From an uncultured Victivallaceae bacterium (GTDB taxonomy: Bacteria > Verrucomicrobiota > Lentisphaeria > Victivallales > Victivallaceae): a stretch of 64,000 nucleotides of DNA. Position numbers and translations under genes: made by a program. This document shows positions 19,555 to 62,421 of this stretch, piece after piece (within the stretch, counting starts at the first letter, position 1; each line of letters begins with the position of its first letter). The notes under the pieces are model-generated. The model searched no databases, was not told the origin of the DNA, and worked only from the letters and a program-made list of their open reading frames with translations. The stretch lies in the NCBI GenBank assembly GCA_944392655.1, contig CALXXL010000001.1, forward strand, positions 62,001-126,000. The letters are read 5' to 3'.

Positions 19555-20799
19555 TTATTCAGAGCGCAGAACCTCAATCGGATTCTGCTGTGCTGCCTTC
19601 CATGCCGGGTAGGTTCCGAATACTATACCGACGAAGCAGGCGATAGCCAGAGAGGTTATGATACTCCAGCTGGAATATACTGACGGCATGTCAGCATATA
19701 TGGTAATCAGCTGTGAAATTCCGATGCCGGTAAATATTCCCAATACGCCGCCGATGGTGGTAAGCAGAACGGTTTCAATCAGGAACTGGCACAGGATATC
19801 CGACTTCTGTGCGCCCAATGCCCGTCTGGTACCGATCTCTTTACGCCGTTCAAAAACGCTGGCGAGCATGATATTCATAATGCCGATTCCGCCGACAATC
19901 AGTGAAATGCTGGCAATTGAGCTCATTACTATGGTAAAGATATTCTGGGTGGCCTCTCTTTGTTTTAACAAGTCCAGCGGTACCACCAGATCCCAGTCCT
20001 GCTTATTGGCGTGAGCCTTCTCCATATAGGAGCGGATACGTTTGGCCGTATCGTCGATATATGCAATATCCTGAACTTTGACCAGAGAAAGATCGTATTC
20101 TATTCTGGTGGAATCCGGCGCATAATTTTTCAGCAAGCTATACATAGTGGTTGACGGAATAAAGATGATATCGTTCGGATCGCCAACTTCCGGATAATTG
20201 GCGCCAACGTCATTTGAGAGTATGCCGACAATCCGGAGACGATATTTTCCTACTTTTACTGTTTTGCCAAGCAGATTGGTCTGGAGGGTAAACAGCTTGC
20301 GTTTTGCGTTTTCACCCAGCACACACACCAGGGACCGGTTCTCGTAATCTGCCGGAGTCAGCCAGCGTCCGGATATCATTTTTGAGTTGGACTCCGTCAT
20401 AAAGCCGATATCCACCGCGGCCAGTTTAGTGCTTAGCCGGTTCAATCCGCGCAATATCGGCTGCCGGCTGTCCCGCAGTTTGGTGATGGAGGCGATATTA
20501 TCCATTTTGGCGAAGTTGCCGATATCCTTGGTCGTCAGTCCGTAATTTACCAGTTGGGTGTTATTGCTGTTCTGCTGTTGTGCTTCAACCGGAGGTTTCT
20601 TGCTGTATACAATGATTTTATCGATGCCCAGCGCGTCCAGCTGAGCCAAAGCCTTCTGTTTTGCGCCTTCTGATATGGCGAGCATGGCAATAACGCTGCC
20701 GACTCCGAAGATTACCCCGAGGCTGGTCAGAATTGAACGCACTTTGTGCAGAAACAGGTTATGCAGCGAAAGCGATAATAAATCGCGTGGCAGAATCAT
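19555..20799 (-). CDS. MacB-like ABC exporter permease (FtsX-type)
   Basis: This 414-residue permease has one membrane segment near the N-terminus (about 20-42), a large periplasmic MacB_PCD domain, and three C-terminal membrane segments in an FtsX domain with the block ERRKEIGTRRALGAQKSDI, characteristic of MacB/LolC-type mechanotransmission proteins. Its ATPase is a separate gene overlapping it by four bases. The start codon ATG 20799 lies within the ATGA of the ATPase end. Likely role: drive export of a substrate across the outer membrane with the upstream MacA-like protein and secretin. Confidence 0.9.
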   Translation of the reverse strand: MILPRDLLSLSLHNLFLHKVRSILTSLGVIFGVGSVIAMLAISEGAKQKALAQLDALGIDKIIVYSKKPPVEAQQQNSNNTQLVNYGLTTKDIGNFAKMDNIASITKLRDSRQPILRGLNRLSTKLAAVDIGFMTESNSKMISGRWLTPADYENRSLVCVLGENAKRKLFTLQTNLLGKTVKVGKYRLRIVGILSNDVGANYPEVGDPNDIIFIPSTTMYSLLKNYAPDSTRIEYDLSLVKVQDIAYIDDTAKRIRSYMEKAHANKQDWDLVVPLDLLKQREATQNIFTIVMSSIASISLIVGGIGIMNIMLASVFERRKEIGTRRALGAQKSDILCQFLIETVLLTTIGGVLGIFTGIGISQLITIYADMPSVYSSWSIITSLAIACFVGIVFGTYPAWKAAQQNPIEVLRSE

Positions 20800-21515
20800 T
20801 GCGTCACCTCACCGACAGTATCTTCAGTCAATCCGTCACGCAAACGGATAACCTGGTCAAAATGTGACTCCAGCGCCGGGTTATGCGTTACCATAATAAT
20901 AGTGGAGCCGGATTCATGAAGTGCATGAAAGAGTTTCATAATTTCAATACTGGTCTTTTCATCCAGATTCCCGGTCGGTTCGTCCGCCAGCAAAAAGGCG
21001 GGACGGTTGCTCAATGCTCTTGCTACCGCAACCCGCTGGCACTCGCCGCCGGAGAGCTGAGTGGGCTTGTGCCCCAGGCGATGCCCGAGTTTCACCTCTT
21101 TTGCCAACTCAATTGCCCGCTGCCGGCGTTCTTTTGCCGGGACTCTGGCATAGAGCATGGGCACTTCTATGTTCTGTTCCACGGTCAGATGCGGGAAGAG
21201 GTTGAATGACTGGAAGATAAATCCGATCTTGCGGTTACGGATATTGGCCAGCTCGGAATCGGATAGTTTCTCTACTTCAATATCTTCAAGAATATATTTG
21301 CCCTCGGTTGGAATATCCAGCATCCCGAGAATATTCAAAAGTGTTGATTTTCCGGAGCCGGACGTTCCGATAATGCCGACAAAAGTCCCCTTTTTTACTT
21401 CAAAATTTATACCTTTAAGTACCGGAACCGATAATGGCCCGGAGAAATAGGTCTTTTTAAGGTTGACCAGTCGCACCAGAATATCCGACTGTGACATTGT
21501 TCTGTTTCCGGACAT
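20796..21515 (-). CDS. MacB/LolD-type ABC transporter ATPase
   Basis: The 239-residue ATPase carries Walker A GTSGSGKST (50-58), the Q-loop in FIFQSFNLFPHLT, the signature LSGGECQRVAVARAL, Walker B LLADEPTGNLD and the switch histidine in MVTHNP. This set, including the TGNLD, is typical of the MacB/LolD/FtsE group. It is translationally coupled to the permease (four-base overlap) and lies five bases downstream of the membrane-fusion protein. ATG 21515 is used; ATG 21497 is an alternative. Confidence 0.95.
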   Translation of the reverse strand: MSGNRTMSQSDILVRLVNLKKTYFSGPLSVPVLKGINFEVKKGTFVGIIGTSGSGKSTLLNILGMLDIPTEGKYILEDIEVEKLSDSELANIRNRKIGFIFQSFNLFPHLTVEQNIEVPMLYARVPAKERRQRAIELAKEVKLGHRLGHKPTQLSGGECQRVAVARALSNRPAFLLADEPTGNLDEKTSIEIMKLFHALHESGSTIIMVTHNPALESHFDQVIRLRDGLTEDTVGEVTQ

Positions 21516-21520
21516 TGCGC

Positions 21521-23023
21521 TTATTTCTCTCCCTCTTTGCTCTGGAACGGGCGGTATAGATAGACTACGTCGCCTTCTTCCAGGCCGGATGTAATTTCAA
21601 CAAAAGCGTCGTTGCTGCGGCCGATGGTGACAATCCGCTCCTCCGGTCCGGAAAAGCTTTTCAGGTAAACAAAAAACTTATCCTCATTTTCAAATACTGC
21701 CTCTACCGGGACAAAAAGTGTATTGGGGATTACTCCGGTAACAATATCGAGTTGTACACTCATGCCATTGACCAGCTGTTTGTCCTGGCTGTCCATCTCC
21801 ACCTTGGATTTATAGACTTTGGGAGAGTCGGGATCCCAGAAGACCTCGTTCACCGGCATAGTGGCGACGTGGTCGAGTTTGCCGGAGAACTTAACGCCCT
21901 GAAGCGAATCCGGTGTGATTATGACATTGTTGCCGACGCTGACCGCGCTGCGGTACATTTCCGGTAGATCAAAGTCAACAATCAAATTACGCATATCCGG
22001 AATAGTCATTAAAACCATTCCGCGGTAGATGTCCATACCCAATTTGATCTCATTGCGGTTCCACCGTTCGTCAGGATTGCCGTAAAGCACAATACCATCC
22101 ACCGGAGCCGTCATCTCCATCATTGGCAGATAGGACTGCTGTTGTGCCAGTGTCTCTTTCTGGCGGCGGATACGGGTACGCATGTTATCGATTTCGCGTT
22201 GTTTCTGAACTCTCTGGCTATTGACCTGCACCTGAACTTTTTCCAGATTAAGTTTTGCCTGTTCCACCTCGTTATTCAGTGATTTCATCTTGGTCGGGTT
22301 GTCATAGCGCAGGAATACCTTGCGTGCGCTTTCCGCACTCTCAAGTGTTTTTTCTGCATTAGTAATCGCAGTTTGCAGCGAAGAGAGCTGCTGTTCCTGT
22401 TTCGCCTGTTCATTGGCGTCAGAGGAACTGCTGGATGAAAGCTGCGTGAGGTAGTCATTATAATCAGTTTTTGCTTTGCTCAAGGCGACTTCTGCATCCT
22501 GAATTTTTGTATCCAGGTCATCGCGGCTTGAGCGCAATTCATAGCGGCGGTATTTCCGCAATGCGTCCAGTGCCTGATCAAGGCGGTCATGAGCAGTACG
22601 CATGCTTTCTGCGCCGGTACTTTCCTGAATGGTCTGATCCTGAAGCATCACGTCGAGTTCTTTTTCCAGATTGTCCACTTCTACTGAAAGGTCGTTGATT
22701 TTATTTTTCAAATCCTCAGAGTCAAATCTGGCGATTACATCCCCCTCTTTAACATGGGTGTTTTCATCAATGATCCATAGAAGTTTGGTGGACATATTTG
22801 CTTCAAGCCGCAGCAGGTATTTTTTTCTGGCGTTTACCGTCCCTGAGACGGTAACGCCAAGAGTCAGATCTCCGCGGTTTACCGTGTATGTGCGGTCAAG
22901 TGCACCGGAGGTATTGTCCTTCTCGGTGTCCTTGTCGCCGCATCCGCCGGATGGTATAATCATGGCGCCAAACAGTGTGGCGAGCATGAATATTTTGGAA
23001 AATATGCTGTTATTTTTCCTCAT
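21521..23023 (-). CDS. MacA/HlyD-type membrane-fusion lipoprotein
   Basis: At 500 residues, this adaptor begins with a hydrophobic signal segment and a lipobox-like SGGC (Cys28), suggesting a lipoprotein in the inner membrane. A lipoyl/barrel-sandwich domain flanks a long helical hairpin (about 85-295, rich in Glu/Gln/Lys/Arg, coiled coil), followed by beta-barrel and membrane-proximal domains ending in LVPVEAVFENEDKFFVYL, as in MacA. The start overlaps the secretin end by 14 bases with GAGG nine bases upstream. The hairpin is longer than in typical MacA, which may reflect the secretin partner. Confidence 0.9.
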   Translation of the reverse strand: MRKNNSIFSKIFMLATLFGAMIIPSGGCGDKDTEKDNTSGALDRTYTVNRGDLTLGVTVSGTVNARKKYLLRLEANMSTKLLWIIDENTHVKEGDVIARFDSEDLKNKINDLSVEVDNLEKELDVMLQDQTIQESTGAESMRTAHDRLDQALDALRKYRRYELRSSRDDLDTKIQDAEVALSKAKTDYNDYLTQLSSSSSSDANEQAKQEQQLSSLQTAITNAEKTLESAESARKVFLRYDNPTKMKSLNNEVEQAKLNLEKVQVQVNSQRVQKQREIDNMRTRIRRQKETLAQQQSYLPMMEMTAPVDGIVLYGNPDERWNRNEIKLGMDIYRGMVLMTIPDMRNLIVDFDLPEMYRSAVSVGNNVIITPDSLQGVKFSGKLDHVATMPVNEVFWDPDSPKVYKSKVEMDSQDKQLVNGMSVQLDIVTGVIPNTLFVPVEAVFENEDKFFVYLKSFSGPEERIVTIGRSNDAFVEITSGLEEGDVVYLYRPFQSKEGEK

Positions 23024-24404
23024 TCGCGGAATCCTCTTTAAAATCCCTCATTCCGGGAGCATTTTCCAATTCTTCCTGAACCTTTTCGATGGTGGTTGTA
23101 GTTGGCGGGAATGTTACCGGGTCTTTAATTATATCGCCTAGCTGCAAACTTTCCTGAGCCTGCTGTTGAGGATCATAAATTATGCCGTCAAGCAATTCTT
23201 CCGGAGAGAGAATAGTGGCGCGCATAATAAATACCAGCTGAACCAGCTCTTTGGTATTTGATTTGGATGTAAAGAGTTCACCTACCCATGGAATATCGGA
23301 TAAAAACGGTGTTCTCTGCTCGTTTATCACCTCGCGTGTATTGAATAATCCACCCATCATGATTACCTGTCCGTTATTGACAGTCAGATTGGTATCAATG
23401 CTTCTAACGGATATAATCGGTACCTGATAAGAGACATTGCTGGCAGTAATCCGGTCATATTGCAAGACGTTGGATACTTCCGGGTTTATATTCAACAGAA
23501 CGGAATTGTTATTGATGATTTTCGGCGTTACCCTTAGTGTTACCCCGATATTGCGGTATTTGGTTGAGAATGATACAGTTGAACCGTTCTGCGACTGTTC
23601 CTGAATCGGGATTTCCTGCCCGGTATTGATAGTTGCGGTATCGCCGCGCGAGATAGTTATATTCGGCGATGAAATGATCTTGGCATCCTGTGCTCCGAGC
23701 AGCCATTGGAAGAAGACATTGATATTGTTATTGTCTGTTGCATATGGGTAAAAGTTTACCACAGCTCCGCTGTTTTGGGAATTTTTACCTATAACTTCGT
23801 TCAAGAAGCCTGAGCTGCCGGTCATATAAGCGTCTTCGCCCTCGGTATTCCAGCCTTTTTCGCGTTGATTGAAAGAAAAAGAGAGATTTCTCTGTGATTC
23901 ATCTGTAATCATTACTTCAACCACTTTGGCTTCGATCAACACTTGCGGGGCGGGAGTGTCGATTGCGGCAATGGCTTTACGGAATACCGGCATACGCTCT
24001 GTGCCATCTACTACCAGAATTTTATTCTGTTCGCTGTTATATTCCACATACCCGTTGTTTGAACATACGGCATCCAGCGTTTGCGCCATTTTATTGGCTG
24101 TGGTATTACGGCAGAAGTAGATTAAAGTGGATTTCCCGTCGACGTCAGGAATTTCTACAAAAGTCGGCTCATCCGGCGGCATAATCGTTCGTTTGCCCAG
24201 TGCGGTAGACGGTGTATGAAGCAACTGTCGCAACTCCTCCACCACATTTTGAACGTTGATTTTGCCTTGTTCGCGTGCCGCCTCATCGCGTACTATCGGC
24301 TCGGTGTTGCTGAATGTGTTCAGGTCATTTTCCTGTCCCAATGCCGTGTGGGTCATTGCAGCCGCAGTCAACAGGAAAAGACAAAAACTGCGTGATTTCC
24401 TCAT
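23010..24404 (-). CDS. Secretin (GspD/PilQ-family outer-membrane channel)
   Basis: The 464-residue protein has a cleavable signal peptide (about 1-23, ending ALG), a short N-terminal region, one N1/NolW-like domain (about 90-155) and the secretin domain (about 160-415) with the conserved VLIEAKVVEVMI entry, the gate region, GLFNTREVINEQRTPFLSDIPWVGELF and the final LVQLVFIMRATIL strand. It is short for a GspD (about 650), lacking extra N-domains. It is the first gene of the exporter operon. No other type II secretion or pilus genes are nearby. Confidence 0.92.
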   Translation of the reverse strand: MRKSRSFCLFLLTAAAMTHTALGQENDLNTFSNTEPIVRDEAAREQGKINVQNVVEELRQLLHTPSTALGKRTIMPPDEPTFVEIPDVDGKSTLIYFCRNTTANKMAQTLDAVCSNNGYVEYNSEQNKILVVDGTERMPVFRKAIAAIDTPAPQVLIEAKVVEVMITDESQRNLSFSFNQREKGWNTEGEDAYMTGSSGFLNEVIGKNSQNSGAVVNFYPYATDNNNINVFFQWLLGAQDAKIISSPNITISRGDTATINTGQEIPIQEQSQNGSTVSFSTKYRNIGVTLRVTPKIINNNSVLLNINPEVSNVLQYDRITASNVSYQVPIISVRSIDTNLTVNNGQVIMMGGLFNTREVINEQRTPFLSDIPWVGELFTSKSNTKELVQLVFIMRATILSPEELLDGIIYDPQQQAQESLQLGDIIKDPVTFPPTTTTIEKVQEELENAPGMRDFKEDSANEEK

Positions 24405-24466
24405 TCTTTACTTGTCCCGGAAGTTAAAATTGTATTTTTATATAAAATGTCTTAATAATCGAGAAT

Positions 24467-24478
24467 ATTACCGGTAAT
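24467..24478. repeat. 12-bp perfect palindrome in the secretin/tyrA intergenic region
   Basis: ATTACCGGTAAT reads the same on both strands. It lies 63 bases upstream of the secretin start in a 274-base divergent gap, a plausible dimeric regulator site. Confidence 0.35.
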
Positions 24479-24618
24479 TTATATATTCATTATGGTTATT
24501 ACAAGCTGTTTTTTGGTAAAAAATTACTTATTTAATTCTTTATTTGCCAAAACAACTCTTTACGGATTGATTTTATTGTTAAATCAACACGGAAAAATAA
24601 CAGAAACCCGACTTGTTT

Positions 24619-24647
24619 TTGCAGAAGTATCAATAACGGAGTATATT
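24619..24647 (+). promoter_or_regulatory. Candidate tyrA promoter
   Basis: TTGCAG (24619-24624), 17-base spacer, TATATT (24642-24647), with the tyrA start 31 bases further on. Confidence 0.5.
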
Positions 24648-24678
24648 ATAGTTATAATTTTTTATAATATAAACGGTA

Positions 24679-27721: not shown

Positions 27722-28879
27722 TCATGGTACAGCCAGGAAACGTTCATCTCCGGCAAAGAGTTTTAACAGTACAATAAGCGAATATGCGCTGGAGCGTGAA
27801 CATGCTCCGCCCCGGCCGTATTCATCCATTCCGCCTTCAAGATACGGATACATACTGGCATTATTTTGTCTGGAAAACAGAGCTTTCAAGGCGCGGCATT
27901 CTGATTCTCCGGTGAAATTATGCGGTACGTTCAGTTTTTCCGCTTCCAGGACGGTATTAAGAACCACCGGAATTCCGGCGCAACTCTGTTCAAAAAATCC
28001 ATCCGGCTGCTGGTCGCGGGCAACGGCTGCGAGAAACTTTTCCGCGCCGTCAAGGAATTTCCGGTCTCCGGTAGCTTTGTAAGCGCATAGAAGTCCCAGA
28101 GATGTAAGGTCGTCATTAGATTTATGCAGTCCGCCCTGCGGGTCGTTTTCTGGTACGCTCATGGTTGCCTTGATAACAGTGCGATAGTAGCCGTCCGGCT
28201 GCTGGACATATTTTAAATAACGTTCAGCAAAAGATACATACCAGTCGCCAATCCATTTCTTATCGCCTGTAGCTTTATAGAGGTGATAAAAGAAATTCAA
28301 GCATCCGCCGTGAAAATCGCCAAGTACATCGTTGCGCATAAGAGCCGAACCATCCCGCCATGGCGGTTCCAGATCTACTCCCCATAAAGGCAGTCCATCT
28401 TCATCCTGACCTTTCCGCATATACCACTCAGCCCACAGCACTGCCCGTTCAAGATACTCTTCTTCCCCGGTGACGCGATAGAAATCGACGAACCCCCATG
28501 CACCGGATAGCCCATCACGCACATAACACCAGGTACTTTGTGGGGTATGTTCGCGCAGTGCTCCGCGATGTTCAGGTATAAACGGGTCGAAGATCTGTAA
28601 ACTCTTCAGGTAAACCCCCATTTTTTGTGCCGCATAAAGATAGCGCTGATCGTCAAACACTTTAGCCGCGCTGAACATGCCCATGGCTGCAAACGCAATG
28701 GCCCATTCAGTCGCGGACAACTGTGGAATGCCAAAAGCGTCATATTCAAAAAAGAAACTTCCGGCTCCGGGTTCCCAGTCCCGGAAGCGGATCTGATTGC
28801 GCAGATAATATTCAGCGATGCCGTGGGCACACTTCATGCCGGCGTCAGAGAGTCCGGCAACATTTTCAATAATACTCAT
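27722..28879 (-). CDS. Alpha/alpha-barrel carbohydrate-locus protein, paralogue 1
   Basis: From ATG 28879 (AGGAG eight bases upstream) it is 385 residues. The chain is a series of helical hairpins with aromatic- and Gly-rich turns (YRVTGEEEYLERA, YKATGDKKWIGDW, YKATGDRKFLDGA), the pattern of (alpha/alpha)6 barrels such as six-hairpin glycosidases, epimerases and unsaturated uronyl hydrolases. Conserved stretches shared with the next gene include GAWGF, GLPLWGV, DPQGGLHKSNDD, FEQSCAGIPVVLN and SSAYxLIVLLKLFAG. No signal peptide is seen, so it probably acts in the cytoplasm. I cannot name the substrate or an established family with confidence. Confidence 0.75.
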   Translation of the reverse strand: MSIIENVAGLSDAGMKCAHGIAEYYLRNQIRFRDWEPGAGSFFFEYDAFGIPQLSATEWAIAFAAMGMFSAAKVFDDQRYLYAAQKMGVYLKSLQIFDPFIPEHRGALREHTPQSTWCYVRDGLSGAWGFVDFYRVTGEEEYLERAVLWAEWYMRKGQDEDGLPLWGVDLEPPWRDGSALMRNDVLGDFHGGCLNFFYHLYKATGDKKWIGDWYVSFAERYLKYVQQPDGYYRTVIKATMSVPENDPQGGLHKSNDDLTSLGLLCAYKATGDRKFLDGAEKFLAAVARDQQPDGFFEQSCAGIPVVLNTVLEAEKLNVPHNFTGESECRALKALFSRQNNASMYPYLEGGMDEYGRGGACSRSSAYSLIVLLKLFAGDERFLAVP

Positions 28880-28901
28880 AATTAAGCTCCTCTCAATGTA
28901 A

Positions 28902-30071
28902 TTATTTTGCCGCCGAGAGGAAGCGGTCTTCCCCGGCAAATAGTTTCAAAAGAACAATTAAGGCGTATGCACTTGAACGCGTGCATACTACGCCGTCGGA
29001 ATATTCATCCAGCGCGCCACGCTTATTCGGGAAGATATCACCCGGATCCTGCCGTTTGTAAAGGGCCCGCAGTGCCTCTGCCGCCTGCTCAAGCCGTGAT
29101 TTGGGCCATGGACCGAGTTCTCCTTCCGACTCCAGAAGGATATTCAGTACCACCGGGATCCCGGCACAGCTCTGTTCAAAAGAGCCGTCTGGACGCTGTA
29201 TAGCGAAAACAGCCTCAATAAAATCGTGAACCGCATCTAGAAAATATTTTTTCCCTGTAACCCGGTAGGCGGCCAGCATGCCGAGAGATGAAAAGTCGTC
29301 GTTAGATTTGTGCAATCCACCCTGAGGATCTTTATCTGGAACTCGCCCGTCAGCTTTGAACACGGTTTTGAAGAATCCATCCGGCTGTTTAGCATTAGCG
29401 ATATAGAATTCAGCAAAATCCTCGAAACGTGAGTCGATATAGCGGCGGTTACCGGTTATCTGGTACATCCGGTAGAAGAAGTTCAGTATGCCGCCGGTAA
29501 AATCACCGAGCATGTCATTGAGCATAGGTGGCGTACCCTCTGAAAGCGGAGGAGCGAATTCAACTCCCCACAAAGGCAGTCCCTGTTGATCAACTCCTTC
29601 GCGGAAGTACCACTCTGTCCACAATTCCGCCCGGCGCAGATATTCCTCATTGCCGGTAACCTGGTAATATTCCAGAAATCCCCATGCCCCGGTTATCGCA
29701 TCCTTAATATAACACCATGGAGTTAACGCAGTCATCTCTCTGATGGCGCCGTAATGTCTTGGCAGATATGAGTCAAATATCTGCAAAGAACGCAGATAAA
29801 AGATCATTTTCTCTGCCGAATAATTGTACAGATCGCAATTGAAAGCCCGTCCGGCGGCCATCTGCCCCATAGCGGCAAAAGCCAGCTGCCAGTTGGTTAC
29901 TCCGCCCGATGGCTGTCCGATAAAGCTTATGGCAGCCGGGAAGCTCCCTGCGGCGTGGATATAATCCTTGTACCTAACCTGATTATTGACATACCATTCA
30001 GCGATTCCTTTTGCGCATTTTAATCCGTCTTTGCGCAGACTTTCCAGTGACTCCACCAAAAGTGACATCAT
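28902..30071 (-). CDS. Alpha/alpha-barrel carbohydrate-locus protein, paralogue 2
   Basis: At 389 residues, this protein is collinear along its whole length with the downstream paralogue and shares the same blocks (AKGIAEWYVNNQVRYKD against AHGIAEYYLRNQIRFRD; GGLHKSNDD; EQSCAGIPVVLN). It was probably made by tandem duplication followed by divergence. It is the first gene of the pair, 22 bases upstream, so the two form an operon pointing away from the divergent regulator gene. It has no signal peptide. ATG 30071 or the adjacent ATG 30068 may start it. Confidence 0.75.
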   Translation of the reverse strand: MMSLLVESLESLRKDGLKCAKGIAEWYVNNQVRYKDYIHAAGSFPAAISFIGQPSGGVTNWQLAFAAMGQMAAGRAFNCDLYNYSAEKMIFYLRSLQIFDSYLPRHYGAIREMTALTPWCYIKDAITGAWGFLEYYQVTGNEEYLRRAELWTEWYFREGVDQQGLPLWGVEFAPPLSEGTPPMLNDMLGDFTGGILNFFYRMYQITGNRRYIDSRFEDFAEFYIANAKQPDGFFKTVFKADGRVPDKDPQGGLHKSNDDFSSLGMLAAYRVTGKKYFLDAVHDFIEAVFAIQRPDGSFEQSCAGIPVVLNILLESEGELGPWPKSRLEQAAEALRALYKRQDPGDIFPNKRGALDEYSDGVVCTRSSAYALIVLLKLFAGEDRFLSAAK

Positions 30072-61401: not shown

Positions 61402-62421
61402 TTACGGCATAAGGTAGAAAAATTTTCCCCGGTTTTCAAGCATGACCTGTTCAGATTGAGCTCCCGGGAGCGAAACTTTGACCTCTCCCGTTGCGGCTGC
61501 CTGTCCGGTAATGCGCCGGAACATAGTTTTCCAGTCGATATCTTCCGAGCTGAAACTTACCTCGTAATTGTTTTGGATTCCGGCCGTTTCGGCGGCGTAT
61601 TGGATTGCGTCGTCCAGAGAGCCGAGCTCATCGACCAACTTTAATTCAAGCGCCTGTTCTCCGGTAAAAACTCTGCCATCGCCAATGCTGGAATTTTTAA
61701 TCTCCTCTTCGGTAATATCACGTCCTTGAGCGACAACTTCCACAAAGCCCTGATAGATTTGAGCAACCATTTTTCTGGCGATTTCCGCGGCTTCCGGCGT
61801 AGTTGGAGCGCCGCCTGCGAGCATGGTTTTATTCACTCCCGAGGCGAAATTTTCCTCCTGCACACCGATTTTATTGAGTAAATCATAATATTTTATACCT
61901 GAAATCAATACGCCGATGCTTCCTGTGGTAGTGTAGCGGTTGGCAAAAATTCTGTCACATCCGGCGGCGACATAATACCCTCCTGATGCCGCCATCACCT
62001 CCATGCATGCGATCACCGGTATGTCCTCTTCGCGCAACTCCTGGATTTTGCGGTACAATATATCTGTGGCGACTACTTCTCCTCCAGGGGTATTGAGTCT
62101 CAGAACGACTGCTTTGACATTTGGATCCATTGCAATATCATCCAGCTGATTACAGATGTGTTTGACGTCGGCGACAGAGCTGCCGGCAAATCCGGTGTTG
62201 TCCTCCAGCATAATGATTCCTGCCACATCAATTACCGCAATCTGGTTGGGGTGTTCAATTTTCACCGTAGATTTAATATTGGATGCCGCTACGACACATA
62301 AGATAATCAGAAGAATTACCGGTGTAACTGCTGCGATAAATGCGGCCAGACATCCTATTCCCGCAAATCCCAGACATCCGATACCCTTTCTGCGGTTTTC
62401 ATTGCAATCTGCTTCATTCAT
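61402..62421 (-). CDS. sppA: Signal peptide peptidase SppA (36K type)
   Basis: The 339-residue S49 peptidase has one N-terminal membrane segment (about 16-47), the ClpP-like fold with LRLNTPGGEVVATDI, the catalytic serine in AASGGYYVAAGCD and the TTGSIGVLISG block; NFASGVNKTMLAGGAPTT carries the candidate catalytic lysine. It is anchored in the inner membrane and degrades cleaved signal peptides. It is one base after the PfkB kinase stop, in a four-gene run from rnc. Confidence 0.92.
   Translation of the reverse strand: MNEADCNENRRKGIGCLGFAGIGCLAAFIAAVTPVILLIILCVVAASNIKSTVKIEHPNQIAVIDVAGIIMLEDNTGFAGSSVADVKHICNQLDDIAMDPNVKAVVLRLNTPGGEVVATDILYRKIQELREEDIPVIACMEVMAASGGYYVAAGCDRIFANRYTTTGSIGVLISGIKYYDLLNKIGVQEENFASGVNKTMLAGGAPTTPEAAEIARKMVAQIYQGFVEVVAQGRDITEEEIKNSSIGDGRVFTGEQALELKLVDELGSLDDAIQYAAETAGIQNNYEVSFSSEDIDWKTMFRRITGQAAATGEVKVSLPGAQSEQVMLENRGKFFYLMP

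Follow-up and report, generated by a model that had tools for sequence, protein, structure and literature searches.

A window of 64,000 nucleotides from an uncultured Victivallaceae bacterium (positions 62,001 to 126,000 of contig CALXXL010000001.1, assembly GCA_944392655.1; genome of 2.34 Mb in 37 contigs) contained an operon that combines a secretin, a large ring-shaped pore of the outer membrane, with the components of a MacAB-like exporter. Read on the minus strand from position 24404 to 19555, its genes encode a secretin, a MacA-like membrane fusion protein (MFP), an ATP-binding cassette (ABC) ATPase and a MacB/FtsX permease (Table 1). All four proteins had Pfam matches above cut-off: the secretin matched PF00263 (Secretin) at 136 bits (cut-off 27.5), the MFP HlyD_D23 at 34 bits (cut-off 30), the permease both MacB_PCD (98.4 bits) and FtsX (83.2 bits), and the ATPase ABC_tran, with Walker A, LSGGE, Walker B and H-loop readable in its sequence. 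The coordinates, order and overlaps (14 and 4 bases) claimed for this row in a first-pass annotation were thus confirmed, as were the families given to the four proteins. The ATPase and permease were separate genes, without fusion, and a 5-base gap separated the MFP and ATPase genes. NCBIfam matches were all below cut-off, both for the secretin, which matched many secretin models (GspD 168 bits, PilQ 158), and for the operon proteins that matched the MacA, MacB and LolD models. The MFP profile also matched Escherichia coli MacA in the PDB.

Table 1. Features of the secretin-exporter operon, with positions counted from the first nucleotide of the window.
Feature	Position	Strand	Properties or basis
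Secretin gene	23010..24404	-	464 aa; signal peptide, one N-domain, pore domain, C-terminal tail
Secretin N-domain, single, about residues 82-150	23955..24161	-	Secretin_N match at residues 99-154, weak, 24.5 bits
Secretin pore domain, residues 239-399	23208..23690	-	PF00263; profile aligns with GspD, PilQ and pIV structures
Secretin/MFP gene overlap, 14 bases	23010..23023	-	Coordinates
MacA-like membrane fusion (adaptor) protein gene	21521..23023	-	500 aa; HlyD_D23, HlyD_3, RND_mfp
MFP alpha-hairpin, helices 102-197 and 203-297	22133..22720	-	AlphaFold2; predicted local distance difference test score (pLDDT) about 80-94 over most of the hairpin
Hairpin tip, residues 198-202; rich in Ser, TolC-docking-type motif absent	22418..22432	-	Model and motif scan
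ABC ATPase gene, MacB/LolD type	20796..21515	-	239 aa; ABC_tran 117.8 bits
ABC/permease gene overlap, 4 bases	20796..20799	-	Overlap also in 53 of 65 orthologous pairs
MacB-like permease gene	19555..20799	-	414 aa; MacB_PCD at residues 22-257, FtsX at 294-407
Candidate promoter region, intergenic, upstream of operon	24405..24678	.	Consensus matches only

The operon was conserved within the order. A total of 137 Victivallales genomes were searched for the secretin and for the MFP. Secretin orthologues were told apart from paralogues, of which the best had an E of about 1e-28, by their similarity across most of the protein. They were recognised in 81 genomes, the weakest match being a fragment at a contig end; the MFP was present in 82, nearly always as a single copy. 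Both proteins occurred in 80 genomes, neither in 54 and one alone in three (G046, G114 and G011), in each case at a contig end (Fisher p = 1.5e-34, a statistic that ignores the relatedness of the genomes). In the neighbourhoods of 80 loci, the four genes kept their order and shared a strand whenever the contig reached far enough, with a single clear exception that is considered below, and the median intergenic gaps were 3, 6.5 and -4 bases. The nearest named relative was the metagenome-assembled genome Victivallaceae STD2_119 (65% identity of the secretin). Most genomes of genus g14, of the same family, were without the whole four-gene unit, which was therefore lost (or gained) as a block.

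The class Lentisphaeria (197 genomes) was searched with an MFP profile. Five further members of the class, outside the order (G196, G162, G161, G145 and G144), had a secretin adjoining the MFP; the locus in G196 was cut by a contig end. When 387 genomes, all from the phylum Verrucomicrobiota, were searched with a secretin profile, eleven more secretins of this system came to light outside the class; they scored 244-380 bits, with GspD-like secretins at 167 bits or less. Nine of these eleven loci carried the complete four-gene set, and order and strand were kept in distant families of the phylum (L161-L170). Conservation of gene order, on which the first-pass annotation had staked its proposal, was accordingly seen in the order, the class and distant families. 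No flanking gene recurred around the four-gene loci examined, and the unit therefore consists of the four genes; for the same reason, the neighbourhood of these loci offered no cargo candidate. Searches of viral contigs and plasmids yielded nothing useful. With the set conserved in unrelated contexts in the order, the class and the phylum, and no observation in favour of the alternative, the idea that the genes adjoin by chance or only at this locus can be dismissed.

More distant MFP operons in Lentisphaeria mostly had a protein of approximately 550-650 amino acids, and no secretin, directly upstream of the MFP. The TolC family (OEP) was matched by 30 of 34 such upstream proteins that were scanned. 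TolC thus holds exactly the position of the secretin in sister MacAB operons of the same class (e.g. L136 and L140), which share the gene order, the superfamilies of MFP, ATPase and permease, and a similar hairpin length, but differ in their first gene and in the tip of the MFP. Systems of both types, one with TolC and one with the secretin, occurred together in four genomes (G144, G145, G161 and G263).

A permease tree was rooted on E. coli MacB plus two of the phylum's canonical MacBs; in it, the secretin-linked permeases formed one clade (support 99/97), sister to a TolC-linked clade (97/86). The exact root is less sure owing to long outgroup branches; an earlier unrooted tree agreed with the rooted one. 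The secretins of the system also formed their own clade (97), apart from the GspD, pilus-type (PilQ-like) and CpaC-like secretins of the genome, and did not group with the PilQ, Amuc_1098 or CpaC secretins. The main subclades of the secretin tree were those of the permease tree. Secretin distances correlated with those of the MFP (0.81) and the permease (0.79), as expected under co-inheritance, which is no proof of contact. In both trees, a copy from outside the class (L161, in G368) grouped with the Victivallales clade, and this placement suggests horizontal transfer of the whole four-gene module to or from that lineage.

The hairpin of the MFP was compared between the two types of operon, using those MFPs in which the landmarks for the insert between the lipoyl halves were found. 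The insert was about 212 residues long in most secretin-linked MFPs and 204-210 residues in most TolC-linked MFPs, versus 102 in E. coli MacA. Since both groups have about twice the insert of E. coli MacA, hairpin length is a lineage trait. The idea that a longer hairpin compensates for the missing TolC alpha-barrel was rejected on the near equality of the inserts, and the long hairpin that the first-pass annotation had linked to the secretin is not supported as a special adaptation to it. Two secretin-linked MFPs (L160 and L164, in G145 and G144) had an insert of about 328 residues, more than 100 longer than most.

The hairpin tips differed. In MacA, AcrA and HlyD, TolC is bound through a tip motif, RxxxLxxxxxxS/T (PMC3391258). 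The tips of L136- and L140-type MFPs carried a conserved W/Y-x3-L-x4-Y/F-x-S/T-x2-E; in column profiles of the TolC-linked MFPs the motif read W/Y/F-x3-L-x4-Y/F-x-S/T-x2-E, with an invariant D and L after it and an aromatic first residue rather than Arg. A tip pattern resembling this TolC-docking (RLS-type) motif was found in 33 of 36 TolC-linked MFPs (0.8 expected from shuffles) and in none of 88 secretin-linked MFPs (about 0.9 expected). The canonical RLS spacing alone, with the first residue relaxed, did not separate the two groups, whereas the extended motif did. E. coli MacA matched the extended pattern. The pattern is imperfect, as the MFP of the canonical MacAB encoded in this genome (contig C5), with a proline at the turn, missed its strict form. 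The first-pass annotation had also described the MFP as a lipoprotein. The MFP of the window has an atypical lipobox (SGGC); a lipobox was present in 2 of 71 members from the order, and 15 of the 71 had a Cys anywhere among their first 45 residues, so that lipidation was rejected as a family trait.

PF00263 was matched by all 44 aligned members. N0 is the domain by which other secretins meet inner-membrane partners. A domain scan gave one weak Secretin_N match and no STN/N0 domain in the secretins of the system; the same kind of scan gave a weak N0 match and two Secretin_N matches for the genome's own GspD. The single N-domain was predicted to have an E-E-H-E-E-H pattern (AlphaFold2, pLDDT about 65-85). 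The first-pass annotation had named pairing of the secretin with type II genes as the observation that would speak against its proposal. No type II genes lay beside the secretin at the window locus, where the neighbours of the operon are unrelated, and flanks were not conserved elsewhere. GspE-type genes lie elsewhere in the genome: a GspD-like secretin on contig C11 and a CpaC-like secretin on C1 each stood beside their own T2SSE-type ATPase.

Taken together, we consider it probable (roughly 75%) that the four genes encode a MacAB-type tripartite exporter in which a short secretin replaces TolC as the outer-membrane duct. The hybrid exporter proposed in the first-pass annotation is supported by the TolC gene in the place of the secretin in sister operons and by the hairpin tip without a TolC-docking-type motif; its physical assembly we infer. 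Several points weigh against the proposal. In one Victivallales genome (G018) the secretin lies apart, with MFP, ATPase and permease still together. In G335 and G263, secretin and MFP are on a different contig from the ATPase and permease; the permease of that remote pair falls inside the secretin-linked clade. The tip pattern was drawn after the TolC-linked tips had been viewed, and the tip difference sits on one branch of the tree, amounting to about one evolutionary event. The AlphaFold2 models were built from two-sequence alignments; that of the secretin is poor, and that of the MFP has a pLDDT under 50 outside the hairpin. Finally, an MFP hexamer facing a 12- to 15-mer secretin would constitute a symmetry mismatch.

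In such an exporter, the inner-membrane motor would consist of the ATPase and the permease, a four-helix protein of the type VII ABC class. Permeases of this type use mechanotransmission to act on periplasmic substrates, as established for MacB and LolCDE. The MFP ring would collect substrate at the periplasmic face and carry it up a long coiled-coil sleeve, and the hairpin tips may seat on the ring of single N-domains of the secretin, or on the preceding helix, and thereby open its gate. Physical docking, the gating, the stoichiometry and the need of the cargo for a wide pore are features we infer. Because the secretin gate is wider than TolC, a folded protein or polymer is plausible as cargo. 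It is evenly balanced whether these systems make up a distinct class of envelope-spanning secretion machine. In that case a MacB-type ABC motor would drive cargo via the adaptor sleeve into a secretin, folded proteins or polymers that TolC is too narrow for could pass, and the four genes would have spread within Verrucomicrobiota as one mobile module.

Two other explanations were weighed. The ABC transporter and MFP might assemble or service the secretin, which would export periplasmic cargo alone; the service could be a Lol-like mechanotransmission step, used to insert the secretin or to deliver a pilotin. LolCDE and FtsEX are indeed in the superfamily of the permease, and the length of the hairpin in the predicted model would let it extend towards a partner in the outer membrane. 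However, neither a pilotin nor any other gene is conserved beside the four, and the protein that occupies the same position in sister operons is TolC, an established conduit partner; we therefore regard this explanation as unlikely. Slightly less likely still is that the transporter uses a separate TolC of the genome, the secretin being merely co-transcribed and either standing alone or serving as a spare for type II or pilus machines. The genome does encode one unlinked TolC, on contig C2 (L191) beside a glutamyl-tRNA-synthetase-like gene, as well as type II and pilus-type ATPases. Yet that TolC could serve the separate canonical MacAB on C5, the secretin-linked MFPs are without the tip motif for TolC, and the secretin belongs to a clade separate from type II and pilus secretins and was inherited with the transporter as a unit, including the apparent transfer to or from the G368 lineage. 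The exporter with a secretin as its duct thus remained the preferred explanation. The C2 copy is the only clear TolC of the genome; a second OEP match (G000:C5:121358-121609; L192:6032-7333) is the MacA-like MFP of the canonical MacAB.

By conventional teaching, type I secretion and the tripartite ABC, resistance-nodulation-division (RND) and major facilitator superfamily (MFS) pumps belong with the TolC family, and secretins are components of machines for type II and type III secretion, pili and phage export. The present system shares with the MacA-MacB-TolC pump of E. coli the MacB-type ATPase and permease and a MacA-like MFP whose hairpin lies between the lipoyl halves, but differs in having a secretin instead of TolC, separate genes for ATPase and permease, a longer hairpin insert and no TolC-docking-type tip motif. 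With the type II secretin GspD (best PDB profile match 6i1x) it shares the pore-domain family; unlike GspD, its secretin has one N-domain, no N0 and no adjacent type II genes, and forms a separate clade. The pIV protein of filamentous phages (profile match 7ofh) is a short secretin of similar size that also works outside type II and type III systems, but is paired with phage assembly proteins rather than with an ABC exporter. A study of how secretins evolved (PMC6668835) treats co-option for type III systems, Tad and filamentous phages; its text mentions no ABC transporter. No description of a MacAB-secretin system was found in a full-text literature search, which excludes subscription papers and preprints, and the accessible portions of reviews of tripartite systems and of MacB mention no secretin partner. 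The secretin in the place of TolC and the cohesion of the four genes across the phylum point to an undescribed kind of envelope-spanning exporter, the novelty of which is provisional.

Some observations concerned other genes. Five secretins were present in the genome overall, including two pilus-type secretins encoded side by side (G000:C13:1226-6585, L204; open frames of 867 and 927 aa). In several Verrucomicrobiota genomes a GspD-like secretin was apparently split (L173, L174, L175, L176, L177, L179 and L180), with an N-domain gene followed by an adjacent short pore-domain gene. In the window, a prephenate-dehydrogenase-like gene diverges from the operon across the intergenic region 24405..24678, and two adjacent minus-strand genes at 27722-30071 overlap each other and have similar products (405 and 389 aa), which suggests a tandem duplication.

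A conserved MacAB-secretin module breaks the division between TolC pumps and secretin machines. Its adaptor illustrates a change of outer-membrane partner in which the tip motif is gone and the length is kept. The genomes that hold both kinds of operon provide natural TolC-type and secretin-type pairs, useful for studying docking specificity. A secretin pore, which is wider than TolC, would suggest that the system handles larger cargo.
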